DNA of 53,618 nt from a virus. The notes beneath the pieces are model-generated. The model was not told the origin of the DNA, ran no database searches, and saw nothing but the letters and a program-made list of their open reading frames with translations. Below are positions 1-53,618 of the stretch, in pieces (the stretch's first letter is position 1; each line of letters opens with the position of its first letter). Position numbers and translations under genes: made by a program. The DNA lies in the IMG/VR virus record IMGVR_UViG_3300044684_000174, positions 1 to 53,618 of that record, one strand, 5' to 3'.

Positions 1-127
1 CAAGTGCAGAACATCCAAAATTGTTTTGGCGCTGACGATGTCATATTGGAGCAGAGGGTAGTCGCCTTCCAACATGAGACGGCGGATCGACGCAGCGACG
101 TCAGAGCTGGAGTCGTTGATGACCTCC
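1..127. repeat. 127-bp direct terminal repeat, left copy
   Basis: These 127 bases are identical to the last 127 bases of the window. 127 is a common maximum k-mer in short-read assemblers, so the repeat is best read as the overlap of a circular contig, not as a biological terminal repeat. The unique genome is then 53,491 bp. The repeat lies inside the primase-helicase reading frame, which continues through it. A circular assembly fits headful packaging, or a phage whose true direct terminal repeats were collapsed. Confidence 0.95.
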
Positions 128-2382
128 TGGACGTACTTGGTGCGCGGGGCATGGCCATCCGGTTGAAAGCTTGAAGCGATCTCCCAGCTATCGAGAAACG
201 CTCTCAGCGCCCCCGGCATATCACGGAGCATCCCGAAGAGCGGCGGGAAGTAGTTCTCACCGAGAGCCTGCACCTGTGCTTTATGCTGAAGGGGTGACTT
301 CACCACGAAGTACCGGCGGTCGCCCGGTGTCAGGGCAAGCGCGTCGTGGTGATTACTGAAGAGCATGTAGTTGCTGATGTTCGGAGCTTCGCGGGTGTCG
401 CGGTTGCGCTGGTTGATCGAAATGCTGTCGTTGGTGATGAGAGGTTTCAGCGCGTTCATTACCTCCTTGCGGTTAGTGCCCGCAACCCGGACTTCCTCCA
501 GAACGATGAGTTGAGCTCCAAAGCACCATTCGTTCCACCCTTTCTTGATCGCTTCCCCGTTGATCGCTTTGACGTGCTCCATGCCGAGTACCACTTTCAT
601 AGCTTCGGTCAAAAACGTTTTCCCTGCTCCCTCTACCGACTGGATCAGCGTAGCCCATCGGATTTTCCGACCGGGGAACTGCACCAGGTACGCCATAAAA
701 TCGATCAGCGTTCGCCGGTACTCAGGCTCAAGTATCAACACATCAAGATGCTTGAGAAACATCGAGCCAGCTTTGTCCGCGTTCTTGGTGTCCAGCTCTG
801 GGTACGTCGGGGCGTAGGTGTTGACGAACTTCCGGCCCCGGTGAACAAAGAAGATGTCCGTGGGCTGGGAGGGGTCATAGGCGAGATCGTAGACCGTGGA
901 GATCTTTAGATGGTTCAACGCGTAATCAGACGGGCTGACAATGGGCGTGGAGAGCGTGGCCGGGGTCGCTGCTATCCCCATCTCCTTGAGGGAGTCTTCG
1001 GTCGGCAGCAGCCAGCGGGCGTATGTGGCGTTAAAGGCTTCCTTCGTGTAAAGCTCGCCCGTGCGTTGCCGGTAGAACTGCTGCGTGGAGCTGATGTAGC
1101 AAACGCCCTTCGCCCAGCGCGGCTCCCGGATCTTCTCCGTAGGCTTCGCCTGGGCTTTCATCTCAGCTTTCACGCGAGCGATGTCTTTGCGGATCGCCGT
1201 TGCCGAGATCGTGTAAGCGAAGCGCTTCTTGGCTTGAGCACAAAGCCGGTGGATCAGGACATCCTCTTGAACGTTGGTGAGCAATGGAGTAGCAAGGATC
1301 TTCTTCACCCCCCACTCCATGAGCGTTGTTACACTGTCGGCTTCTTCCTCGATCCAACGGATTAGCTGTGCAAAGCAGTTCTCTTTTACCTTCTTGTCGT
1401 CCCACCCGGCAGCGACCGCCAGTCGGAGAAGAGAGCGGATGGTGACCGGTAACCGGCCAATCGGTGTTGGCCGTAGGCTATCCCACTTGGCGCGGGTCTC
1501 CTCCTGCCCGCCGTACTTGCTCCCACCTTCGCTCCAGGTGTCAAACAACTCGAAAGCTTCTTCGGCTTGGCGCGGGCTAAACTGATGCTTGAGAGCTGCC
1601 GCGCATTCGAGCCATTCAAAGTAGCTGCAATCCGGGTCTACAGCTTGGAGCGCTTCCGTTGCAATCGCGAGGTTGATCTCTGGAACCGGTGCCCGCAAAA
1701 ACTCTAAAGCGTCAATCCCGGCTTCACCTGCCGGCCCTTTTGCTTCTGAGTATTCGGGGAAAAGCGAATCTGAGATGTCCGAAGGCTCGAAGGCCCGGCC
1801 GTCCACGCGGTACGCAATCAGCGGGTGATCCTCGTCCGATGAGTCCGAAAACATCGTCGGAACGAACATCGGCTGAACAGCTACCTTGGACTCAGTGGTG
1901 AGCTTGGCGAGCCCCAGGCGGGCCGCGACAGTTGCAACAGCTCTCGGGTAGGTAGAGATGGGGATGTTGTTGGCATCCACCACAATCCGCATGCGGGGCT
2001 TTTCCGCAGTGCTCGACGCTGTTGTGTGCGCAGCAAAGTTGAACCCCTCCAGTGCTGAATAAAGTGAATCCGGGTTGTTGTAGAACGGGGCCGCCGGGCA
2101 CTTGCCTTCCTTGGTCTCATCGATGTCAATGAAGATCAGGTTGCAGCGCGTGGCCTCTTCGTAGACACGTTTCGATGGGGATTCCTTAAAGCACGCGGGG
2201 ACAAAAAAGGGAACCTGTTTTAGCTCATTGCGCTTGCGCTTGTCCAGGTTCAGGAACGCTTGCTGGGTAATCCCGAGCGTCGGGCAGATCCGCAGAATGT
2301 CCACCACTTCACAGAAGTTGTGAGCCGCTGAAGCGCTGACTAATCCGGTGACGGATTTACCTTGGAAGTATCGGGCTGCCAC
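1..2382 (-). CDS. Primase-helicase (AEP primase, PriCT-2, D5/SF3-type helicase), main part
   Basis: The leftward frame is open from 2403 past base 1 and, after closing the circle, ends at the TGA at 53285-53287: about 862 residues from a GTG at 2380-2382. It synthesises primers and unwinds DNA at the phage fork. Near residue 80 an FIDIDE motif and then HTTASST and KPRMR resemble the archaeo-eukaryotic primase core. Around residues 240-290 a WLECAAALKHQF stretch fits PriCT-2. Around residue 580 VEGAGKTFL is a Walker A variant with Ser in place of the first Gly. LIVLEEV follows as Walker B, then NYMLFSNHHDALAL and GDRRYFVV as in D5/VapE-like helicases. No ATG is available near the N-terminus. 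GTG is the likeliest start, 21 bases after the TAG of the upstream 55-codon gene. There is no clear ribosome site, so the start is uncertain. Confidence 0.88.
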   Translation of the reverse strand, partial: MAARYFQGKSVTGLVSASAAHNFCEVVDILRICPTLGITQQAFLNLDKRKRNELKQVPFFVPACFKESPSKRVYEEATRCNLIFIDIDETKEGKCPAAPFYNNPDSLYSALEGFNFAAHTTASSTAEKPRMRIVVDANNIPISTYPRAVATVAARLGLAKLTTESKVAVQPMFVPTMFSDSSDEDHPLIAYRVDGRAFEPSDISDSLFPEYSEAKGPAGEAGIDALEFLRAPVPEINLAIATEALQAVDPDCSYFEWLECAAALKHQFSPRQAEEAFELFDTWSEGGSKYGGQEETRAKWDSLRPTPIGRLPVTIRSLLRLAVAAGWDDKKVKENCFAQLIRWIEEEADSVTTLMEWGVKKILATPLLTNVQEDVLIHRLCAQAKKRFAYTISATAIRKDIARVKAEMKAQAKPTEKIREPRWAKGVCYISSTQQFYRQRTGELYTKEAFNATYARWLLPTEDSLKEMGIAATPATLSTPIVSPSDYALNHLKISTVYDLAYDPSQPTDIFFVHRGRKFVNTYAPTYPELDTKNADKAGSMFLKHLDVLILEPEYRRTLIDFMAYLVQFPGRKIRWATLIQSVEGAGKTFLTEAMKVVLGMEHVKAINGEAIKKGWNEWCFGAQLIVLEEVRVAGTNRKEVMNALKPLITNDSISINQRNRDTREAPNISNYMLFSNHHDALALTPGDRRYFVVKSPLQHKAQVQALGENYFPPLFGMLRDMPGALRAFLDSWEIASSFQPDGHAPRTKYVQEVINDSSSDVAASIRRLMLEGDYPLLQYDIVSAKTILDVLHL

Positions 2383-2403
2383 TTGGGGTATTAAGGGAGG
2401 GTT

Positions 2404-2574: not shown

Positions 2575-2952
2575 TTAAAACTCGTCCAAGTTGAGCGGGT
2601 GTACTGTCGGCTGCTCCGGCTCCTCTACCTTGCGAGCGATCTTGTAAACCAGTGCAAAACGGGATTCTTTCTCACAGGTAATGTCTACCAGTGCGATAGA
2701 GAATTTCTGTGAAAGTTTTTCACAAGCACTGGGCATCTCCTCAATCGGGATGGCATAGGCCGGGATGCTCTCGAAGAGCCCATCGCCTTTCTCGATTAAC
2801 CCCCGGTCCCCGAGCACTTCAGCAACCCGCTTGGCACACTGGAACTGGGCCACGTATTCACCCGTCTTGCAGACGAGGGTTATGCCCGCTCCGGCTGAAA
2901 CGCGGCGGGTCTTGAGGTATCCCTCCTGCTTGGCGTCGTAGAGTAATGACAT
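2575..2952 (-). CDS. MutS domain I-like stand-alone protein with acidic-Phe tail
   Basis: 125 residues. Residues about 24-92 follow the order of the MutS mismatch-recognition domain: a strand (ITLVCKTGEY), a helix with QFQCAKRVAEVLG, then ESIPAYAIPIEE and FSIALVDI, against the MutS pattern MGDFYELF..DAKRAS...PIPMAGIP...VAICEQ. The Phe-x-Glu that reads mismatches in MutS is replaced by Tyr-Val-Ala (residues 33-35), so mismatch wedging is doubtful. The C-terminus is NLDEF, the same tip as on the phage ssDNA-binding protein and DUF2800 nuclease. It lies directly before the primase gene, so a role at the replication fork is inferred. The assignment rests on reading the pattern by eye; a structure prediction would settle it. 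Confidence 0.6.
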   Translation of the reverse strand: MSLLYDAKQEGYLKTRRVSAGAGITLVCKTGEYVAQFQCAKRVAEVLGDRGLIEKGDGLFESIPAYAIPIEEMPSACEKLSQKFSIALVDITCEKESRFALVYKIARKVEEPEQPTVHPLNLDEF

Positions 2953-5796: not shown

Positions 5797-6045
5797 CTAA
5801 TCTTTCCTGTAGACGTGCAAAGAGACGTTGTGCCCTGTGGTTTCGTTTAGTCCAGACCGGTAACCGATGAACGCGTCAAAAATGGCATAGGAATGGTCTG
5901 GTGGGTGCGAATCCAGCCGCAACGCTCCCACGTTTGACTTCTTGCCGTAGTTCTTACGGGCCATACGCGCTGCAAATACTTGAGCCGCTTCCGTGAACGA
6001 TTCGGCCAACACTGGCCGCATTCCTTCGCAAGTGTATTTGTTCAT
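5797..6045 (-). CDS. Hypothetical protein, 82 aa
   Basis: Start at ATG 6043-6045, four bases after the TAG of the gene upstream; a GTG 12 bases earlier is less likely. Helix with FTEAAQVFAARMARKNYGKK, then a beta end HNVSLHVYRKD. Widespread small phage gene type, no known function. Confidence 0.55.
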   Translation of the reverse strand: MNKYTCEGMRPVLAESFTEAAQVFAARMARKNYGKKSNVGALRLDSHPPDHSYAIFDAFIGYRSGLNETTGHNVSLHVYRKD

Positions 6046-6049
6046 AAGC

Positions 6050-6451
6050 CTATTCACAGTAGAGTTCCCCGTCGCAACCTTCTACCAGGTTCACCTCTCT
6101 GAAGGTCTTCGCGATGTCGGTGAGCTGGCTCGCAAACGGTTCGGGCCAATCCCCATCCCAGAAACCCGCTCCGTGACCGTTCCGAGTGAGCCAGAAATCG
6201 TGTGCAGCTCTTTCCCATTCGTTAAAATCTGGACCGCACACAACTTCGCTGGTTTCAATGGCCGCGCTGATGATCCCGCTTGCAGCGTGGAGGAAGTTTT
6301 CGCAATCGCGTTTGCAGCGCTCAAGCGAAAGCTCGTGTAAATCGGCGTAGGTGTAGTGATCGTCTAACGGTTCTCCATCGTCGCCGGTAGAAGACCAAAG
6401 GGCAGTGATTAGGTAAGCCCGGAGAAAAGCATCAATGTTTTGAGTGCTCAT
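6050..6451 (-). CDS. Conserved phage protein, DFWLTRNGHGAGFWD family, 133 aa
   Basis: Start at ATG 6449-6451, overlapping the upstream TGA (ATGA). It carries the strongly conserved HDFWLTRNGHGAGFWDGDW motif (residues about 90-110), known from many unrelated phages. The middle has KRDCENFLHAA. The function of this family is not known to me. It sits among other widely shared small genes. Confidence 0.75.
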   Translation of the reverse strand: MSTQNIDAFLRAYLITALWSSTGDDGEPLDDHYTYADLHELSLERCKRDCENFLHAASGIISAAIETSEVVCGPDFNEWERAAHDFWLTRNGHGAGFWDGDWPEPFASQLTDIAKTFREVNLVEGCDGELYCE

Positions 6452-17054: not shown

Positions 17055-18908
17055 ATGGCAACGGCTACCCCCATTTTCGACGGTCACGACGCGCTAACAG
17101 GCATGGAAGGGGGCAACCCTTCTATCATCGGCGCGTCGAGCTGTGCTAATGCGGTAAACCGTAGTTTCCGTGGGGGGTACAACAGGACCAGGACGCCCTT
17201 TCGGGAACTGGCTTTGACATTTGCCAGTGATGCGGATGCGCAGTTGTTCCGGACTGGCAATGTCCAAGGGGCTTTTTTCTATTCAGGCCGGCCGCCTACC
17301 ACCAACCAGGTAATCGGTGGATCGGTCCCGCTCTACTGGCCAAACTACATCGTGGTGGCAATCGCGGGAACCATATTCGGGATTCAGCTCTCAGGCAAGA
17401 CTGGGACTGTTATTAACATCAGAAGTGGTAACAACCCGCTCCTGATGCACACCTGGTTTGAGCAGGGTTACGAGTGGCTCTTTGCCCAGAACGGGGAAGA
17501 GAACTGCATCATCTGGAACGGGCAAGACCCCACCAACGCGAAGAACTGTTTCCGCAGTCAGCCGACGCTAAACCAGATGCCCACGGGCGGCCCAATGGCT
17601 TTCATCTACGGCCGGATGGTGGTCACTAGCGCTGATGGGCGAAACCAGATTGCGGTCAGCGACATAGCTTACGGCAACCACCAAAATAATTCCAGTGACA
17701 TCTACATGTTCACGGATCAGACGTACTGGAACGAAGGCGGGTATTTCGACATCGCGGCATCGCTCGGCGACATCATGGGGATCACGCCGATGCCTTACCT
17801 GGACACGGGCTCTGGCCAGAATGAGCTGGTGGTGTTGTGCCGCAATGGAGCCACGTCTTTTGACTTTTCGGCTCCGCGCGCAAACTGGCTAAACACCCAG
17901 GTGCAACGCATCAGCTTAGTAGGGATGGGATGCGCGTCTACCCACTCTCTCGCGCTCGTTAATGGGGATTTGGTGTACAAGAGCAAGGACGGCATTCGCA
18001 CTTACCGAAATAGCCGCCAGGAGTTCGCCAGCGGGTACAGTCAAGTCCCGATTAGCTATGACGTGGACAAGTGGCTATCCCAAGAGAACAAATCGCTTTT
18101 GGAGTTCTCCAGCCAGATTAGTTGGAACAACATGCTTTTTTCCACGGTAATGCCGATGATGCAGGCGAACGTTACGCCTGGTTATGGCTATCACCGTTAC
18201 CACCGTGGAATGGTAGTGCTGGATTTCCAGACCAACAATAAGCTCTCCGGGTCCACCCCTATGTGGTATGGGCTTTGGACTGGCATCCGGCCGACTGCGT
18301 TGGTGCAAGGCTACGATGGCGGGAACCACCGGGCCTTTGTTTTTAGCTTCGATTGCGACGGACAAAACCGGGTCTACGAGTTCGAGGAGCAGGGGGATTA
18401 CGACTTCGGCAACGGACAAAGGAGTGCGATCGTTTCGTTCTACGACACGCCGAGGTATTGCGGGATTCAAAGCAATCGGTTTACTCACAAGCGATTGATC
18501 GGCGGCAATATCGAGCTGAGTGAGATCAATGACCCGGTGGGCTTGACCATTCAGTATAAACTAGACAACGCTCCGGTGTTCCTGGATTGGAAAAGCACCA
18601 CAGTTGGGTGCACTTGCACCGGCTTAGGTCAAAACCAGAGTTGGGATCGCAAGGACTTAGGCCAGCCCAACGACGCTTGCGTAGACGGCAGCCGGTTTCT
18701 GGCGAACATCTTCAGGGCGTCACAGTTCCGCATTAAGCTCACAGGGGCCGCCACCGTGGACCGGTTTGGTGTAACGATGGTCACCAAGGAGCAGACCAAC
18801 AAAGACAACTTCGCGGAGCCTACCGCTTGCGCAGTTCCCTCGGCACCATGCTCAACGGTACAATGCCCGGATACCGGAGATTTTGATTACTCGATTGTAA
18901 ACTGTTAG
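17055..18908 (+). CDS. Tail tubular/nozzle-like protein (beta-rich, 617 aa)
   Basis: A long beta-strand-rich protein with repeated hydrophobic-aromatic strands (GYEWLFAQNGEENCIIWNG, GGPMAFIYGRMVVTSADGRN, NELVVLCRNGATSFDFSAP, NGDLVYKSKDGIRTY) like a propeller, as in the tail tubular B/stabilisation proteins of short-tailed phages. The C-terminus has a Cys cluster and ends in Cys (ACAVPSAPCSTVQCPDTG ... NC). Preceded by the fibre-like gene and followed by an IPT protein and a tubular A-like protein. Confidence 0.6.
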   Translation: MATATPIFDGHDALTGMEGGNPSIIGASSCANAVNRSFRGGYNRTRTPFRELALTFASDADAQLFRTGNVQGAFFYSGRPPTTNQVIGGSVPLYWPNYIVVAIAGTIFGIQLSGKTGTVINIRSGNNPLLMHTWFEQGYEWLFAQNGEENCIIWNGQDPTNAKNCFRSQPTLNQMPTGGPMAFIYGRMVVTSADGRNQIAVSDIAYGNHQNNSSDIYMFTDQTYWNEGGYFDIAASLGDIMGITPMPYLDTGSGQNELVVLCRNGATSFDFSAPRANWLNTQVQRISLVGMGCASTHSLALVNGDLVYKSKDGIRTYRNSRQEFASGYSQVPISYDVDKWLSQENKSLLEFSSQISWNNMLFSTVMPMMQANVTPGYGYHRYHRGMVVLDFQTNNKLSGSTPMWYGLWTGIRPTALVQGYDGGNHRAFVFSFDCDGQNRVYEFEEQGDYDFGNGQRSAIVSFYDTPRYCGIQSNRFTHKRLIGGNIELSEINDPVGLTIQYKLDNAPVFLDWKSTTVGCTCTGLGQNQSWDRKDLGQPNDACVDGSRFLANIFRASQFRIKLTGAATVDRFGVTMVTKEQTNKDNFAEPTACAVPSAPCSTVQCPDTGDFDYSIVNC

Positions 18909-18914
18909 AAGCCT

Positions 18915-19679
18915 ATGGCCGGTAATTCTCAAAACTCAATGCCGATTGTGGCCGCGACGTGTCCCTCAGACAGGCAATGTGTCAGGAATGGAACTGACGT
19001 ATTGAATCTAGTCCAGGATTTCTGTTCAGTTGGTGGAACCGCTGGCAACTCTGGATCGTCTCTCCCAACTCAGGACTCGACCGGCGCGCAGGCTTTGCAG
19101 ATTGCCCAGCAAAACACTGCGGCTATTCAGGGTGTTCTTGCCAAGCTTCCAGATACCCGGTTTGCGACTAACTTTGCTCCCGTACCGCCAGCAGTGAGCG
19201 GGGTTAGCACCGCGGGCATTTCTTGGACTGTGCCGTTAGGCACTACCAACTACATCGTGCACCTAAGCTTCCAAGGCCCGGATAGCAATGCAGCGATCAG
19301 CGCGGCTTTCAACTGGTGGGTAGTTCAAGGGAGCCAGACCACCACAGGATGCACTATCCACTTTGATTCTGCACCGGCAAAGAGCGTCGGGCTCACATTC
19401 GCGTGGGCGGTTACCGCTCCCCCGAATGCCATTGCCTCCGGCCCTACGTTCGCGGGAGTTAACCCGACTCACGCTGCCGTGGGTTCATCTGTAACGATAT
19501 ACGGAAGCGGGTTTACTGGCGCAACCGAGGTGGACTTCAATAGCACTCCAGCTAGCTTTACCGTCGTTAGTGATACTGTGATTACCGCCACCGTGCCTAC
19601 GGGTGCCACTACTGGGGCTATAACCATCCAGACGGGAAGCGGCAGCGTAATTTCAACCTCTAGCTTTGCTATACCGTAA
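18915..19679 (+). CDS. Virion protein with C-terminal IPT/TIG domain
   Basis: 254 residues. The last 77 (residues 177-253, GVNPTHAAVGSSVTIYGSGF, then DTVITATVPTGATTGAITIQ) are a clear IPT/TIG Ig-like domain. The middle is a fibronectin-like beta domain (ISWTVPLGTTNYIVHLSF). The N-terminus has two Cys (TCPSDRQC). IPT domains in phages decorate tails and capsids and bind surface sugars weakly. Confidence 0.7.
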   Translation: MAGNSQNSMPIVAATCPSDRQCVRNGTDVLNLVQDFCSVGGTAGNSGSSLPTQDSTGAQALQIAQQNTAAIQGVLAKLPDTRFATNFAPVPPAVSGVSTAGISWTVPLGTTNYIVHLSFQGPDSNAAISAAFNWWVVQGSQTTTGCTIHFDSAPAKSVGLTFAWAVTAPPNAIASGPTFAGVNPTHAAVGSSVTIYGSGFTGATEVDFNSTPASFTVVSDTVITATVPTGATTGAITIQTGSGSVISTSSFAIP

Positions 19680-20647
19680 TGAATTTAGCCCTTGGGGAAG
19701 TATTAGGCCCAGTAGCCCCGAATGTGGGTGATAGTGGCATCTGTCTTTTAACCGACAGGCAAGCGGCCGTGGACGCCGTAAACCGCGCCCAGCGGCTCTT
19801 GATTGTGCGTCTTGACGCGAAAGGGACTGTGGTGCCGCGTTGCATTGACGTGTGCCAGGAGGTATTCGCGCTTCCGCCGGAGATCAACGAGATTCGCAGC
19901 GTGATGGTTGACGGGCAAGAAGCTGTGCAGCGTGAGCAGTCTTACGAGATGGGCAGGCACCGCGGATCCCACCATTGGCGGCATCACTGCCATGGCCATG
20001 AACTGATGGACTTAGGCGATGGATGGGCGACCCCGACCTTGTTGCCGCAAATTCCCAACGCGCATCTTGCAATCTCCGGAGTCGATGCAGACGCGGGAAA
20101 GACGCTTACCTTCCGGGTCTTAAACCGGTACAATCAGTGGGTTACCGAGAACCTCACGATTCAGGTTGACCGGCAGATGGACTTCACTCAGACCGATTGT
20201 TACGATGTACAGTTTTGCAGCAAGCCGGTCACGGCAGGGCCGGTGAACGTGTATTGGGTTGCCCCCGATGGCACCTACGGGCTGCTAGCCACCTATGGGC
20301 CGAATATCACTAGCCCCACTTACCGCCGTAAGAGGCTGCCAAAGCATCACGGACACCACAAGATTCACCGGGTCAAGATCCTTGGGAAACTTCGCTACTT
20401 CCCCGCCTCCGCGGACGCCGATCAACTCGTGATCGGGAATCTTGATGCCATCATTTGGGGTGTGAAGGCCATCACCGCGCAAACCCTTGGCGATGCAAAA
20501 TCGTTCGACCAGTATATCGCTCTGGCAGTTAATGAACTGGAACAGGAACTTCGAGACGAAGAGTCTGATGCGACCGTAGCTCCGATACAGGTTTCAACCG
20601 GATGCAGCTTTAATCAAAGGAGAGCACATGGCCGCCACTGGCACTGA
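19679..20647 (+). CDS. Tail tubular A/adaptor-like protein, His-rich, 322 aa
   Basis: Start overlaps the previous stop (TAATG). VDAVNRAQRLLIVRL early on resembles the helical start of tail tubular A/adaptor proteins, followed by RCIDVCQEVFALPPEI and a beta domain. A His-rich loop (GRHRGSHHWRHHCHGHE, near residue 100) and KHHGHHKIHR (near 228) are odd and could hold metal. The C-terminal helix QYIALAVNELEQELRDEE fits a connector tail. The family call is tentative. Confidence 0.5.
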   Translation: MNLALGEVLGPVAPNVGDSGICLLTDRQAAVDAVNRAQRLLIVRLDAKGTVVPRCIDVCQEVFALPPEINEIRSVMVDGQEAVQREQSYEMGRHRGSHHWRHHCHGHELMDLGDGWATPTLLPQIPNAHLAISGVDADAGKTLTFRVLNRYNQWVTENLTIQVDRQMDFTQTDCYDVQFCSKPVTAGPVNVYWVAPDGTYGLLATYGPNITSPTYRRKRLPKHHGHHKIHRVKILGKLRYFPASADADQLVIGNLDAIIWGVKAITAQTLGDAKSFDQYIALAVNELEQELRDEESDATVAPIQVSTGCSFNQRRAHGRHWH

Positions 20648-23516: not shown

Positions 23517-26500
23517 TGAAATGCTTGATGTGGCTGCCAAGGAGAAAACTCCTTCGGTGGACCAGATGCTAGACGCTGCTGCCGCTGCTCAAGAGAAGCC
23601 CCAATCGGCAGCACAGCCGTCTGTCGATCTTCCTAAGCCCCCTTCGGTAGGTGACACGATCGATGCGGAGATGCAGAAGCGGATTGACCGGGAGGCAAAG
23701 CGGAATGAGCCACAGCTATCAGCTAGCCCAGGGCAATCTAAATGGGAGAGTTTGCAACGTTACTTCTCTCCGTTATTTGGCCCTACCCAGGCCCAGCAGA
23801 TCGAAGAAGCGGTCCCTTTCGGCAAGAACCCAGATGGCAGCCAGAAATACGAGTACAAGCCCTTGGGCAGCAGGATCGACAAAGAAGGGTTGATCCCGGC
23901 CATCCTGCATGTAACGATGGAAGCCACTTCGCCTGATTCGGCTATCCGCGGCGCGAAGCTGGCAGCCCAAGGCAAAGACACCTCCTTAGAGTCGATTGCA
24001 CAGGATAAGCAAAAGGAATATCTACAGCCTAGCCCCAGCGACACGAAGATTGACGCAGCTCTGAAGGCTTATCACAACACGCTTTTCGATCTGACCACGA
24101 TGCTGGAAAACCCAGGCATGTTTGCGATGCCGGAGAGTAAATTACTGAGTGGGTATTTTACCACACAGATGGCGCGCAGCGCTATTGATCAGACCAAGGA
24201 AGCTCTAAACGCGAAGACCGAACAAGGGAAGATCCAAGGCGCAATGGGGGCGGTCGTGTCTTCTCTATTTGCGGGTCTTGGGGCCAAGCATATTGCTGGT
24301 GGTAAACCAACCCCAGAAGAGATCGCGGATCATGTTAGCGCTATCCCAGATGACATATTAAAAGAGGCCGCGGCTAGTCCCGGTATCAAAGAAAACGAGC
24401 CTGAGCTTCACCAAGCAGTAGAACAAGAAATCCAAAAAAGGAGCGAACAAAATGCCACTACAGAAGGGGAAAAGCAAAGCAACATTGAGCCGGAACATAG
24501 CGGAGTTCCACAAGGGGAAAACGTACCAGCAGACCAAACGCAAGCACGGCAAGGCGAAAGCGGACAAACAGGCGGTGGCGGTGGCGTTCAGCCAGCGCAG
24601 ACGCAGCTAGAAGAGCCTCTATCCAAAGAGCAACAGGACAAAGTTAGGTCTGCGTACAACGAGATAAAGCAGAACTCCGGGTTTCGGGATGTCCTGATTT
24701 CTGATCTTCAGCAGCGCTCTGGTGTGCCGCTAAAGCCATTGCAGGACTGGCTTCGCCAAGAAAGCCGCAACGGCACCGTCAACCCTACAAAGGGGGACTG
24801 GTCACTCTCGAATGAGAACGACCGCAACGCAGCGATCCAAGTTGCTGGTGAGCCTCATTTGCGTGTGCAGCTCAAGGATGCCGAATCACCGGCTGTGGAA
24901 GCTGCCCCTGAAGCGGCACCAGTTAATACGTTCGTGCGTGATATCAATTCGCTTCCAGAGGATGTCAATCTGTTCAACAGCCGGATGGTGTCCATACTTA
25001 ACGCATGGAAAAAGTACCGCAGTAAAACTGGCTCTGATATATCTCTGGATGACTTTAAGAGGAAGTTAGTTGAAGAGTCTGCTAACGGAAACATAGAGCT
25101 TAAAAGGTTTGATTTCCCCACTAAGGAAACGCTCCAGGAATATGGTCTAAACCATGAAACGCTTCCCCAGTCAGAGGTCTATCGTGGAGGTGAGACGTAC
25201 CACGCAATCGTTCAAGCAAATGAGCGGCCTCCTGTTCAGCGGACAAAACCTGGTAGAGTGAGAATTAATATAAGGAGAGAAGAGACACCCGAGAATTACG
25301 TTGGCGGTCCAGGCGCAATGGGGCCAAAGGAAGCGCAAGAGATGCAGGCCAACAGGCAGATGCTTTCCAACAAAAACGCTGCGGTGGATGAAGCTCGTGT
25401 TGCCCGCGGACAACAACCACTCATGTCCCACGCCAAGCAGACTCTTGGGGAATGGTGGGATCAGGCGATTGACATAATTGCTAAAGACAAGGAAGCCGGA
25501 CCTAAGCTTGTAAAGAGCATCCTTGCTGATCCAAGTCCGAAGACCAGCAAGACCGATGAAGCGGTGTTGCTTCATCACCGGGTGGACCTAACCAACGATA
25601 TCGAACAGTTGGCCGGAGTAATTAACAACGAGTCTGCGAGCCCAGAGGAGAGATCACAAGCCCAGCAGGACTACGATAAGGCGATGGCGAACCTGGAAGA
25701 CCTGGACCAGGCAACGCGCAAGATAGGGTCAACATGGGGCGAGGCTGGCCGGATGCGGCAGGCATCCATCGCTGATGACTATTCCCCTGCATCTCTTCTA
25801 CGAAAAGCGCAAGCTGCGCAAGGAGGCAAACCTCTGACTCCCGAGCAAGTTGAGGAAGTAACCAGGATCGGCGCGGAAATTACGAAGGCGCAAGAAGAGT
25901 CCGATACCCAGGATAAGATCAATGCTCAGAAGACGGAAGCAGAGCGGGATAAGGATGCCGAGAAAAACATTGACGAGATCAAAAAGAGAACTAGCAAACC
26001 GGAAAAGAAAGGGTTGCTAAAGAGGTTAAGGAAAGAGCCCACACCAGAGGAGCGCTTCAACTCGATCGTCTCAGGGCTAAAGCGCAATGCTGACAACCCG
26101 GATTCAATTGGGACGTACATCCAGAAACTTGCGGAGCACTTTGTACGGCAGGGAATCGACCAGCGGGAGCCGTTGGTAGAGGCTGTGCACAATGCGGTGA
26201 AAGACATCCTCCCCGACGCGACTAACCGCGACATCCGGGACGCGATTTCCGGTTATGGAAAGTATTCCGAACTCTCCAAAGACGCGGTGAAAGTAAAGCT
26301 CCGCGACCTGAAAGGTCAGATGCAGCAGGTCAGCAAGATTGATGACATGCTCAAGAAAGGGCAGCTTCCGGAGAAGACCGGCGTGGAGCGCAGGAAACCC
26401 AGCGCGGAAGAGCGGACGCTTATTAAGGAAGTCAACCGCATCAAGAAAGAGCTGCAACTCGAATCGAACGACCCAACTAAGCTGCAAGGCGCTCTCGACG

Positions 26501-44749: not shown

Positions 44750-44983
44750 TTAGAACATTGGATCATCCATTGATGGCGGACGAACAGGACGTGGCAAGCT
44801 GCCGTGTGACTTTCTCCATTCGCAGAACGCCTGAAACAGCTCCTTACCGCCCCGTACTTGTGCAGCAGTGCTCTTGAGCTGACGCTCTCGTGCTTCGCCT
44901 TGCTTGAAGACTCTGCCGTCATCGCTGAAGGAGTAGTACCAGTCGTGCTTAGCCAGATCGTCGTAGAATTCTTGTATTGTCAT
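44750..44983 (-). CDS. Hypothetical protein, 77 aa, with MDDPMF tail
   Basis: Aromatic-rich N-terminus (FYDDLAKHDWYYSFSDDGRV) and GKELFQAFCEWRKSHG helix. The last six residues MDDPMF repeat those of the HTH protein at 9125. Start overlaps the TGA of the helicase gene. Unknown function. Confidence 0.55.
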   Translation of the reverse strand: MTIQEFYDDLAKHDWYYSFSDDGRVFKQGEARERQLKSTAAQVRGGKELFQAFCEWRKSHGSLPRPVRPPSMDDPMF

Positions 44984-46356
44984 GCTGCTTTACGGTAGCT
45001 CTCCAACATCTGGAGAGCGGAAATTAGTCGGGCCTCGTTTTCGGCTTTGTTGGCCAGTGCTTCAGCCACTGCGTCATCTACCGTCCCAGGCACCATGAGA
45101 CGGTACACCTTCGTAACGTTCTGCTGCCCACGGCGGGCGAGACGTGCAATCATCTGTTCGTAGATCTCACGGGAATAGGTGAGCGAGATCCACACCATCG
45201 CCGATGACCCGTATTGGAGGTTGAGCCCGTGGCCTACTGAAGCCGGATGAGCTACGAGCATGGGGATCTTCCCGGCATTCCAGTCGGTGAGTAGCTTCGT
45301 CTGGTCCTTCACACTCTTGGCGTCAGTAAAGAACCTCGCCTGGGGGAACTGTTCACGGATGCGGTCCTGCTCGTGCTGGAATATCACCGCCACGAGAAGA
45401 GGCTGTTTCTCTTGTTTAGCGATGCGCTTGAGCGCGTCGAACTTGAGATTGTGGATCGGGTGGACATCCCGTTCCTCGTCGTAGATATGCCCGCTGGTAA
45501 ACTGCAATAACTTTGTGACGAGAGCGGCAGCGTTGGCAACGTTGAGTATCTTATCCTTCCGCAACTGCAACACGAGATCCGCTTCAAGCCGGAGGTACTG
45601 CTTGCGTAGCTCGGGGCTGAACTCCAGTTCGATATCCTCGTAGTGCGTGTCTGGGATATCTAACCAGTCAGATGACTTAAGCGTGATCGTGATGTCACTG
45701 ATCTTGCTCTCCAGCGTGTCTACGGCACCAAGCTTGGTTTCCCATTTAGCAAAGTCCCTTTCAGGTTTGTAGAAGTAGCTCTTCTGAAAATCAGTAACGT
45801 TGCGGCCCAGCCGTTGCCCGCCGTCGATCAATCGGACTTGCGCGAACAAGTCCATCCAGGAGTTAGGCATCGGTGTGCCGGTGAGCCCCCAATGGCGCTC
45901 AGCACGGGGCACCTTCCTACGGTAGAAGTTGATTCGCTTGGAGCTGGGATTCTTGGCGCGGGTCAACTCGTCAAAGATCACCACGTCATACGGTAGTGTA
46001 CCACGTCGCCGTTCAACTAACTCAGCGACGATCTTGAGCGAGTCATAGTTGATCGTGTAGATGTGGGCTGTGCCATTAAGGAAAGCCCGTTGACCCTTTT
46101 CCTCTCGAAGGTTGGCAACACGCATCCACTTGAACTGGTCCCACGTTTTGACCTCCATCGGCCAAGTCAGGTTCGCCACGCGCAGAGGGGCAACGACAAG
46201 CGCGGACGTAGCTTCAGCGCCAAGGAAAAGCTCGTTGAGGGTGTCTAGGCATGCAGCCGTCTTGCCAATGCCCATGCCGACGAAAGCAAGCGCGTCCTCG
46301 CACTGTAGCAAGTGCTCCTTGATTAGTTCTTGAGGCTCTACTGGTTCAAAACGCAT
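44980..46356 (-). CDS. SNF2/DEAD-like helicase
   Basis: 458 residues. FVGMGIGKTAACLDTL (Walker A, residues 27-34), VVAPLRVANLTW (Ia), VVIFDELTRAK (Walker B DELT, 129-132), HWGLTGTPMPN (III), LLVAVIFQHEQDRI (IV), GLNLQYGSSAMVWISLTYSR (V) and IARLARRGQ (VI) are all present. It uses ATP to remodel DNA or displace proteins. This set with polymerase A, VRR-NUC and DUF2800/DUF2815 is a known replication module of tailed phages. Confidence 0.92.
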   Translation of the reverse strand: MRFEPVEPQELIKEHLLQCEDALAFVGMGIGKTAACLDTLNELFLGAEATSALVVAPLRVANLTWPMEVKTWDQFKWMRVANLREEKGQRAFLNGTAHIYTINYDSLKIVAELVERRRGTLPYDVVIFDELTRAKNPSSKRINFYRRKVPRAERHWGLTGTPMPNSWMDLFAQVRLIDGGQRLGRNVTDFQKSYFYKPERDFAKWETKLGAVDTLESKISDITITLKSSDWLDIPDTHYEDIELEFSPELRKQYLRLEADLVLQLRKDKILNVANAAALVTKLLQFTSGHIYDEERDVHPIHNLKFDALKRIAKQEKQPLLVAVIFQHEQDRIREQFPQARFFTDAKSVKDQTKLLTDWNAGKIPMLVAHPASVGHGLNLQYGSSAMVWISLTYSREIYEQMIARLARRGQQNVTKVYRLMVPGTVDDAVAEALANKAENEARLISALQMLESYRKAA

Positions 46357-46865: not shown

Positions 46866-47615
46866 TTAGTCTCTCTTAACAGGCCCAATAAACTTGATGC
46901 GATAGTTCTTGTACTTGCTGCGCTTCTCCCCTTCACAGTAACGCTTGAACGCGTCCAATGGAGTCTCACCTTTCTGCATATCGATGCCATGCCCAATAGT
47001 TCCACCCTTCCAGTCATTCTTACCTGGGCCTACTTCCTCACTAAACCGGATGTCCAAACTGCGATGAATCTTGGCTGGCCAAAACCATTTCATCCATCTG
47101 AACCAACCTTCACCACGATGCCACTCTCGTTCCTCGATAAAGCAGGTTGCAATGATGCGCTTCCCGTCGTAGTCCTCAATCTCGAATTGTTCTGATGGGC
47201 AGGTCTCGCGGACTCGCATGAACTCGAAAAAGTCTCCTGCCTGTGTAGCAAAGTGATCACCGACTGGAGTGTAAACGCTGCTACGGACACACCTCCATTG
47301 CTTCCACGGTAGATGCTTGCACCAGTCTTTAGTAGTGCGGCTGTCATGGGTTTGCTGACCAAACTTGACAATCAGGAAGTCGTATCCGTTCCCCATATCG
47401 TGAAGTGAGATACCATACTCTTTTTCGTTAAATCCTCCGGCCGGTTTGATGTTGAAAGGCATCTTGATCCGCAGCGCCCATCCAAACCCAACAAGGGTGA
47501 AATACGTGATAGCTTCATCTTCATCGGCACCAGTCAAGCGGATAGAGAAAAGCTTTGTCCACGGACCTACGGTGAATGGTCCCCAGTTTCTGTCATGTTC
47601 GGTCATTCTGCTCAT
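46866..47615 (-). CDS. Conserved replication-module protein, 249 aa
   Basis: Strand-rich protein: FSIRLTGADEDEAITYFTLV, GFGWALRIKMPFNI, then GHGIDMQKGETPLDAFKRYC near the C-terminus. Found between polymerase and VRR-NUC genes here, as I have seen in related phages. No fold or enzymatic motif can be assigned. Starts four bases after the polymerase stop. Confidence 0.6.
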   Translation of the reverse strand: MSRMTEHDRNWGPFTVGPWTKLFSIRLTGADEDEAITYFTLVGFGWALRIKMPFNIKPAGGFNEKEYGISLHDMGNGYDFLIVKFGQQTHDSRTTKDWCKHLPWKQWRCVRSSVYTPVGDHFATQAGDFFEFMRVRETCPSEQFEIEDYDGKRIIATCFIEEREWHRGEGWFRWMKWFWPAKIHRSLDIRFSEEVGPGKNDWKGGTIGHGIDMQKGETPLDAFKRYCEGEKRSKYKNYRIKFIGPVKRD

Positions 47616-49668: not shown

Positions 49669-50211
49669 TTAAAACTCGTCCAGCTTCTCCTCAAGAGCTT
49701 CAAACTCATCCTCTGCGTTGATTGGAGCGGCACCGAAGCTCTCACCGTCTTTGACAAACTGGACGGCCCGAAGCTCAGCATTCACACGCTTACCCCACTT
49801 GTTATCTTGCACCCAAAGGCGTACAGTAGCATTGACATAGCACCCGGCATACACAACGCCATCTTCTTCAGTCACTGGGCTCACCGAACGGTCAACAACA
49901 GCGGGCCGGGTCTTCCGGCCGGCAGAGATGAACATGATACCATCACCGTAGCCTTCGATATCGGCTTTGTCGTTACCATCGCGCAAGCAGGATTTGAAGT
50001 TGGTCTTCTTCTTCCAGTAGTCGAGAGCAAGCCGGTCAATCAGCTTCTCGATTTGAGCGATCGTAGATTTGTGCTCTTCTACGTCCATGAGGAACGTAGC
50101 TGAGAACTTGGGTTCTTGCCCTTCCTCCATCGCGTGAGCAGTGAAGAGGTGAGGGAAGGAAAGCCGAACGTTCTTCAGCTTGACGATTGCGGGGTCTGCG
50201 GGTTGTCCCAT
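49669..50211 (-). CDS. DUF2815 single-stranded DNA-binding protein
   Basis: 180 residues. VKLKNVRLSFPHLFTAHAME, then PKFSATFLMDVEEHKSTIAQ and VYAGCYVNATVRLWVQDNKW, ELRAVQFVKDGESFG match the DUF2815 OB-fold family. The acidic C-terminus ends EEKLDEF, an SSB-like tip. It coats ssDNA at the fork. 18 bases before polymerase. Confidence 0.9.
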   Translation of the reverse strand: MGQPADPAIVKLKNVRLSFPHLFTAHAMEEGQEPKFSATFLMDVEEHKSTIAQIEKLIDRLALDYWKKKTNFKSCLRDGNDKADIEGYGDGIMFISAGRKTRPAVVDRSVSPVTEEDGVVYAGCYVNATVRLWVQDNKWGKRVNAELRAVQFVKDGESFGAAPINAEDEFEALEEKLDEF

Positions 50212-50242: not shown

Positions 50243-51166
50243 TTAGTCTACGTCAGACAATTTGAAAGTTGCCTGCTTGTCGTCGTGAGGTACGACCTGT
50301 TTAGGAGTGAACGGGAACTCTGCGGACTCAAACCCGCAAGCCCCACGGTGGCCGCCCCCGCCGTGCTTTACAGCGATCTTAGACAGGTCAAGATCTGTGC
50401 GGAAACTAGCTTGGTACATGCTAACGTTCCACTTCTCCCCGTCGAAGTAGAATCCCATCAAGGCATCATGTCCATTGGATGGTTTATCGAGAGCCACAAA
50501 TGAATTGCTGTTGCAGCGAGCCGTACAGAGAGCCAAGAAGATAAGACCCTCAAACTTCAGCATAAAGCTACGATGCCGTATCACGTTTGCGTCTCGTTTC
50601 TCGATACACGTCTTTGCAGCGCGGCCGCCCGTCAGTAACGAGCTGACATAGATGTTGCCGTTTTGACCGTATTCTAAAAGGAGATCCCAATTCAAGTTTG
50701 GACATGCATCCAGTGCGAACTGGAAATCAATATCGTCCCCATTGCTGGGTTTGTGATCCCAGATGTCGTACTCCCCGGCAAGGGTGACAGCATAGGGCTC
50801 CAGAACTCGACGGCGTTCGTAGGCGACTTTGACCCAGCTAACATCTCCGAAAAGGTATTGCCAAGTGAGGCGGCAAGCGGCAACACCGTCGATACGGTAA
50901 CCAGGGATGGCAGGATGATATCTATCGATCGCGCTCTTGTGGTGGTCGATCCAGTTGAGAGCAGGATGATCCATCAGCTCAGGGATGGAGATATCAAGCA
51001 TGTAGATGGTGGAGTCCTGGGAAACCTCCGGCACTGGATCGCCGTAGTTCCAACCGATGTACTCGGTCTTTCCAGGGTATTCGTTCTCAAAAAACTTCTT
51101 CGCGATTTCACGACAGAAGATGCCGTCGTAGTCTGCGTTGTGGTAAATTACAATGATGGGTGCCAT
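50243..51166 (-). CDS. DHH/DHHA1 family phosphoesterase
   Basis: 307 residues. YHNADYDGIFC, MLDIS, NWIDHHKSAID and the C-terminal KHGGGGHRGACGFE give DHH motifs I-III and the DHHA1 GGGH loop. Relatives degrade short RNA/DNA (nanoRNase) or cyclic nucleotides. Why it is in the replication operon, between SSB-like and DUF2800 genes, is not known; removing short primers or signalling nucleotides are both possible. Its gene starts 12 bases after the DUF2800 stop. Confidence 0.87.
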   Translation of the reverse strand: MAPIIVIYHNADYDGIFCREIAKKFFENEYPGKTEYIGWNYGDPVPEVSQDSTIYMLDISIPELMDHPALNWIDHHKSAIDRYHPAIPGYRIDGVAACRLTWQYLFGDVSWVKVAYERRRVLEPYAVTLAGEYDIWDHKPSNGDDIDFQFALDACPNLNWDLLLEYGQNGNIYVSSLLTGGRAAKTCIEKRDANVIRHRSFMLKFEGLIFLALCTARCNSNSFVALDKPSNGHDALMGFYFDGEKWNVSMYQASFRTDLDLSKIAVKHGGGGHRGACGFESAEFPFTPKQVVPHDDKQATFKLSDVD

Positions 51167-53260: not shown

Positions 53261-53288
53261 AGCATAGGGTTATTGCCTAATTAGTCAA
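53261..53288 (-). promoter_or_regulatory. Early leftward promoter P1
   Basis: Minus strand TTGACT (53288-53283), 16 bases, TATGCT (53266-53261). Its -35 overlaps the primase stop codon (53285-53287). It shares TTGACTAATTAGGCAA with P2 and the spacer pattern with P3, so it should fire with them early. Confidence 0.7.
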
Positions 53289-53618
53289 CCGTAGATTAGC
53301 TCCATGCAGAGATTTTTTTGGTTCGTTTCGCTCCTCAGTACAGCGGTTTGGATAGCGCTAGCAGCACTGACCCCGCCACGCACCCAGATGTAGTGTTTGT
53401 CGGTGCCAAACGTGTGTCGGCCGACCTGCTGGAAACCTTCTTCGCGCAAGACGTGGGCCACCTGCTGAGGTGTGGCCTTGACCCCTTCCTCCAAGTGCAG
53501 AACATCCAAAATTGTTTTGGCGCTGACGATGTCATATTGGAGCAGAGGGTAGTCGCCTTCCAACATGAGACGGCGGATCGACGCAGCGACGTCAGAGCTG
53601 GAGTCGTTGATGACCTCC
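53285..53618 (-). CDS. Primase-helicase, 3' end (continues from base 1 across the circle)
   Basis: The same frame as at 1-2382, re-entering the window at 53618 and ending in TGA at 53285-53287. Bases 53492-53618 duplicate bases 1-127. This part encodes the C-terminal helical end (DIVSAKTILDVLHLEEGVKA, TPQQVAHVLREEGFQQVGRH), a winged-helix-like D5-type tail. Treat as one gene with the first part. Confidence 0.88.
   Translation of the reverse strand, partial: EVINDSSSDVAASIRRLMLEGDYPLLQYDIVSAKTILDVLHLEEGVKATPQQVAHVLREEGFQQVGRHTFGTDKHYIWVRGGVSAASAIQTAVLRSETNQKNLCMELIYG
53492..53618. repeat. 127-bp direct terminal repeat, right copy
   Basis: Identical to bases 1-127. See left copy. Confidence 0.95.

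Follow-up and report, generated by a model that had tools for sequence, protein, structure and literature searches.

The IMG/VR virus record IMGVR_UViG_3300044684_000174, analysed here over its full 53,618 bp (the window), encodes three non-homologous proteins that end in the same four residues, LDEF: a DUF2815 single-stranded DNA (ssDNA)-binding protein (SSB), a DUF2800 exonuclease and a 125-aa protein (Table 1). This sharing exceeds chance, and within-phage sharing of C-terminal tips recurs in related phages. Conservation concerns the agreement of tips between the proteins within a phage, and not LDEF or the acidic-Phe ending itself. On balance, the tips are probably C-terminal docking peptides of the kind recorded for T7 tails, which would link several replication and recombination enzymes to one reader surface.

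The LDEF ends were read directly on the three genes, all of them on the minus strand, with the stops where an earlier note on this DNA had placed them. They are encoded by TTG GAC GAG TTT in the 125-aa protein gene, by CTG GAC GAG TTT followed by the stop TAA in the DUF2815 gene (49669-49683) and by TTA GAC GAA TTT in the DUF2800 gene; since the three codon sets differ, a recent DNA copy or duplication of the tail was rejected. When 75 protein ends were drawn from other phages, an identical last-4 triple was obtained in 0.28% of the draws, and a column-frequency model gave an expectation of 2.6e-5 triples with any common last-4. Listing the open reading frames (ORFs) with an acidic residue and then a terminal Phe within three residues revealed a second shared tip, MDDPMF, which the earlier note had missed. 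This tip is carried, again with different codons, by a helix-turn-helix (HTH) protein and a 77-aa protein that are mutually unrelated; the same model expects 1.5e-4 pairs with any common last-6. As three homologues of the 77-aa protein in other phages lack the tip (they end KEV, KDA and YRA), MDDPMF looks like an addition in the window phage.

Table 1. Features of the window, with family matches and C-terminal ends.
Feature	Positions	Strand	Matches and context	C-terminal end
DUF2815 / Enc34-type (T7 gp2.5-like) ssDNA-binding protein, 180 aa	49669-50211	-	PF10991 (E=7e-40, 137 bits; cut-off 26), phrog_112	...EEKLDEF
DUF2800 exonuclease (PD-(D/E)XK), 409 aa	51179-52408	-	PF10926 (E=5e-65), phrog_69 exonuclease (E=2e-76), weak PF12705	...PIIDLDEF
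125-aa protein	2575-2952	-	no recognisable family; between Xre-type repressor-like ORF and primase	...HPLNLDEF
HTH (GerE / sigma-r4-like) protein, 159 aa	9125-9604	-	Pfam GerE (E=3e-6)	...ENPMDDPMF
77-aa protein	44750-44983	-	phrog_16661; adjoins SNF2 helicase	...PPSMDDPMF
Primase, C-terminal end	53285-53492	-	ORF runs on from 1-2403 (-) over the 127-bp repeat	...MELIYG, no tip
PolA-type DNA polymerase, 676 aa	47620-49650	-	phrog_17 (E=4e-71)	...FYRKD, no tip
SNF2 helicase	44980-46356	-	PF00176, phrog_62; tip present in some relatives	...SYRKAA, no tip
CBASS inhibitor Acb3	46866-47615	-	PF25187 (E=7.5e-57); between PolA and VRR nuclease	
DHH phosphoesterase	50243-51166	-	phrog_4771; between DUF2800 and DUF2815	
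86-aa gene	5797-6057	-		YRKD
Direct terminal repeat, 127 bp	1-127 and 53492-53618			

The DUF2800 and DUF2815 family assignments, made from the sequence matches in Table 1, are firm. From the behaviour of Enc34 ORF6 (PMC5686142) we infer that the DUF2815 protein of the window binds ssDNA; no relatives of it were found in bacterial genomes. Its acidic C-terminal tail reads ...AEDEFEALEEKLDEF, with an internal acidic-Phe motif (...AEDEFEAL...) just ahead of the tip. An internal motif of the form D-[DE]-F-[DE]-x-[LI] recurs about 5-20 residues before the end in both the DUF2800 and the DUF2815 families, as though a docking motif were doubled. The 125-aa protein had been labelled 'MutS domain I-like'; this label found no support, as the protein gave no match to PF01624 or any other Pfam family even at E=10, none to a PHROG and no relevant one in the PDB. 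No relatives of it were found in Pfam, PHROGs, phages, viral contigs or genome contigs, and its single-sequence AlphaFold2 model was poor and uninformative (pLDDT 42.6).

Seven annotated phages that carry the same gene module served as the starting set for comparison. None of them has LDEF tips, yet tips are often common to several proteins within one phage. Of the seven, PspYZU01 has ...DDEDGLI at the end of DUF2815 and of a gene upstream, and ...LEDLI on SNF2; the tips of BPP-1 are ...EDLV and ...ADLV, and those of FoX4 are ...DEDL (DUF2815), DADEL (DUF2800), DDEL (primase) and DLEL (SNF2). Among all phages compared, the most striking case is L189, with ...DDEEV on both DUF2815 and DUF2800 and ...DEDEEV on the primase. 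A tip on the primase, absent in the window phage, also occurs in other phages such as FoX4 and G031. In G001, which of the relatives stands closest to the window phage (DUF2815 72% identical), DUF2815 ends ...AMDEF, VRR ends ...MMSDF, and the ORF that corresponds by position to the 125-aa protein, between the repressor and the primase, ends ...TMEDF. The earlier note had proposed one docking peptide read by a common hub. The recurrent within-phage sharing is what a common docking partner would predict, whereas LDEF itself is not kept; nor are acidic-Phe C-termini conserved, the last residue being L, I or V in most homologues, an outcome that the earlier note had itself named as speaking against its idea.

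Because the seven phages had suggested the hypothesis, it was tested on more data. Eighty viral loci were obtained from a DUF2815 alignment, with complete or near-complete records taken for many of them; later, one more DUF2815 alignment and two alignments of primases supplied further loci. The DUF2800 alignment was too divergent as a viral search query. The non-redundant total of 65 phages comprised a first set of 37, which includes the seven, and a later-fetched (new) set of 28. Among 31 genomes, an identical last-4 was found in 10 of 51,187 non-homologous gene pairs within genomes vs 29 of 1,379,347 between genomes, a 9.3-fold excess, and an identical last-5 in 4 pairs within and 0 between. 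In a paired test, the BLOSUM62 similarity of the last 3-4 residues was compared between true and shuffled pairings. The first set gave p=0.002-0.006 for DUF2815-primase, with and without GC blocking, and p=0.02-0.08 for DUF2815-DUF2800. The later set gave p=0.001-0.002 for DUF2815-DUF2800, p=0.003 for DUF2800-primase and p=0.005-0.01 for primase-SNF2. In all 65 phages the values were p<=1e-4 for DUF2815-DUF2800, p=2e-4 to 4e-4 for DUF2815-primase and p=1e-4 to 0.003 for DUF2800-primase, the lower bound of each range being the value for the last 4 residues. When shuffling was restricted to clades, these three pairs kept p=0.001-0.006, p=0.001-0.012 and p=0.01-0.10, respectively. The DUF2815-VRR pair was null in the paired permutation, and the same test made 8 residues upstream of the tip was null for DUF2815-DUF2800 and DUF2815-primase.

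Several observations weigh against docking. The DUF2800 of G001 ends ...EGLEN, without a tip. DUF2815-primase showed only a trend (p=0.10) in the later-fetched loci, and primase-VRR (p=0.01-0.05) and DUF2815-PolA (p=0.03-0.05) were significant in some settings. Not all controls at offset -8 were clean: DUF2800-SNF2 gave p=0.002-0.004, so that SNF2 is a weak member of the group, and primase-PolA gave p=0.005 in the new set. Many protein pairs were tested and the p values are uncorrected; in the full 65-phage set, a 21-fold correction leaves the two leading pairs standing. A strict common last-3 class was present in only 17 of 65 phages (null 7.2), and tip similarity correlated weakly with the distances of all core proteins, most strongly with SNF2, without singling out PolA. 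Some of these results suit an explanation in which no docking takes place, acidic tails being generic (ssDNA mimicry, solubility or autoinhibition) and the within-phage matches reflecting shared composition and descent. Clade stratification cuts the signal about tenfold, some control offsets are significant too, and an acidic tail, which tunes DNA binding, is common to SSBs in general (PMC5686142). We nevertheless regard this explanation as improbable, given the exact matches of 4-6 residues written in different codons, the persistence of DUF2815-primase at p=0.004-0.006 under GC-blocked permutation, and the mostly uncorrelated ends of PolA and VRR in the same genomes.

Acidic-hydrophobic tips were present on 46/65 DUF2815 proteins, 22/62 DUF2800 proteins and 18/49 primases; the counts were 6/56 for SNF2, 4/60 for PolA and 1/56 for VRR, and 4.5% of other genes had such a tip. 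Outside the module, 8 genes matched the DUF2815 tip class vs 1.8 expected (p=0.005). Two of these belong to G007, one encoding an ATP-dependent DNA ligase (...RDEEELI) and the other a ParB-like protein (...IEEEELI), and another encodes a phrog_408-like protein in G016; the others are small unknowns and one gene from the portal region of FoX4. The high frequency on DUF2815, together with the correlation of other carriers with it, would also be expected under the chief rival to docking on another phage protein, namely that the SSB is itself the reader: the OB-fold groove of DUF2815, which its own tail can occupy, would receive look-alike tips, and the enzymes would be recruited to SSB-coated DNA. 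DUF2800-primase and primase-SNF2 are correlated as well, for which a DUF2815 reader is compatible but unneeded, and the demonstrated partner of the gp4 tail in T7 is gp5. We consider the SSB an unlikely reader.

A few tips resemble that of bacterial SSB, MDFDDDIPF (PMC7913777). MDDPMF is one; some primases end DDFPF, EDVPF or KDVPF, and DUF2815 ends DDIPW or DDISW in G006, G036 and G017 (loci L072, L078 and L079), three related phage contigs in which no PolA was detectable; these two ends are close to the SSB tip of E. coli. Such ends would fit imitation of the host SSB tip and docking into host SSB-binding pockets (RecO, ExoI, PriA and similar), in line with the competition for a host pocket that the earlier note had offered as an option. 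As most tips (DEL, DGLI, DDDL, DEEV, DLV, LDEF) are unlike MDFDDDIPF, competition of this kind fits poorly, and as a general account mimicry is quite improbable; it may apply to MDDPMF and to the DDIPW/DDISW contigs. In Curvibacter phage PCA1 (L008), the primase (...SDLFG, 4832-7408 of L008), DUF2800 (...SDLFN, 18615-19988) and VRR (...KDLFT, 23813-24208) have ends that resemble sliding-clamp binding motifs, and DUF2815 and an upstream gene share another tip, ...SFF.

Under the favoured reading of docking as in T7, a tip of acidic residues and a terminal hydrophobic residue would bind a reader that is presumably phage-encoded and co-evolves with it. The likeliest single reader would be the phage PolA, by analogy with T7, where gp5 is contacted by both gp2.5 and gp4, two proteins with similar ends. 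In the window phage, LDEF would direct the SSB, the DUF2800 exonuclease and the 125-aa protein to this reader, and MDDPMF would serve as a second address or else imitate the tip of host SSB. For the DUF2800-DUF2815-PolA phages as a group, we tentatively propose a lineage-specific address peptide on unrelated DNA enzymes (SSB, exonuclease, primase, ligase, ParB-like protein and small unknowns) that is read by a co-evolving phage hub; the preference of the hub would drift, and all client tips would then change together.

Two of the three LDEF genes belong to the block DUF2800-DHH-DUF2815-PolA-Acb3-VRR-SNF2, and the third sits immediately upstream of the primase. The redundant ends make the record look like a complete genome. 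Within the block, a DHH phosphoesterase is inserted between DUF2800 and DUF2815, and there is a strong match to Acb3, an inhibitor of the cyclic oligonucleotide-based antiphage signalling system (CBASS). In this phage group PolA usually ends YRKD or YKKD; its YRKD end is common in the window to an 86-aa gene, perhaps by chance. No match to a bacterial-type SSB (PF00436 OB-fold domain) was found anywhere in the record. The duf2800-gp2.5-polA phage module is known, and a survey of single-strand annealing proteins that describes it remarks that ssb genes are absent nearby (PMC8093625).

If the favoured reading is true, the final residues of each protein would flag unknown phage replication genes without homology, and the principle of tail docking would extend from T7 to a large phage group. 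It would also provide a rapidly evolving, easily swapped interaction with which to test how complexes keep several partners matched in evolution. No description of phage-specific matched tips on the exonuclease and other DNA enzymes was found in a literature covered thinly for subscription journals, key T7 biochemistry included, so that an earlier description is possible.

Among known systems, the module described in PMC8093625 has the same genes, and the part of that survey available to us contains no shared C-terminal tips. Bacterial SSB tips are alike in their acidic residues and terminal aromatic, and MDDPMF comes close to MDFDDDIPF; they differ in that one protein is there read by many partners, whereas here many proteins bear the tip, which implies one or few readers. 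SP6 was considered as a second T7-like case and gave no clear shared pair (primase-helicase TQEFNG, polymerase SWKETH, gp20 SEEEEF, gp25 EPDVF). The closest parallel is T7 itself, in whose record gp2.5 ends ...DGDF and gp4 ends ...DTDF. In T7, gp4 docks its tails on basic patches of gp5, and loss of the tail lowers processivity (PMC12593628, PMC8835902, PMC8472574); for gp2.5, the tail has been linked to contacts with the polymerase and the primase-helicase, and DUF2815 proteins have an acidic tail too (PMC5686142). Docking of phage proteins through similar acidic C-termini is already known from T7, and the arrangement is therefore not the wholly new way of assembling a replisome that the earlier note had envisaged (PMC12593628, PMC5686142). 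In both phages the SSB and another replication protein share an acidic, hydrophobic-ended tip: SSB and primase-helicase in T7, and here DUF2815, a gp2.5-type SSB, and DUF2800; PolA is a family A polymerase like gp5, and the window primase, ending MELIYG, has no tip. Unlike in T7, an exonuclease (DUF2800) bears the tip here as well, and relatives have it on primase, SNF2, ligase, ParB-like and phrog_408-like proteins; the tip sequence varies from phage to phage while matching between proteins, and docking is a prediction from sequence comparison. What is new beyond T7, on our best reading, is that the tip is present on more enzymes and changes together between phages.
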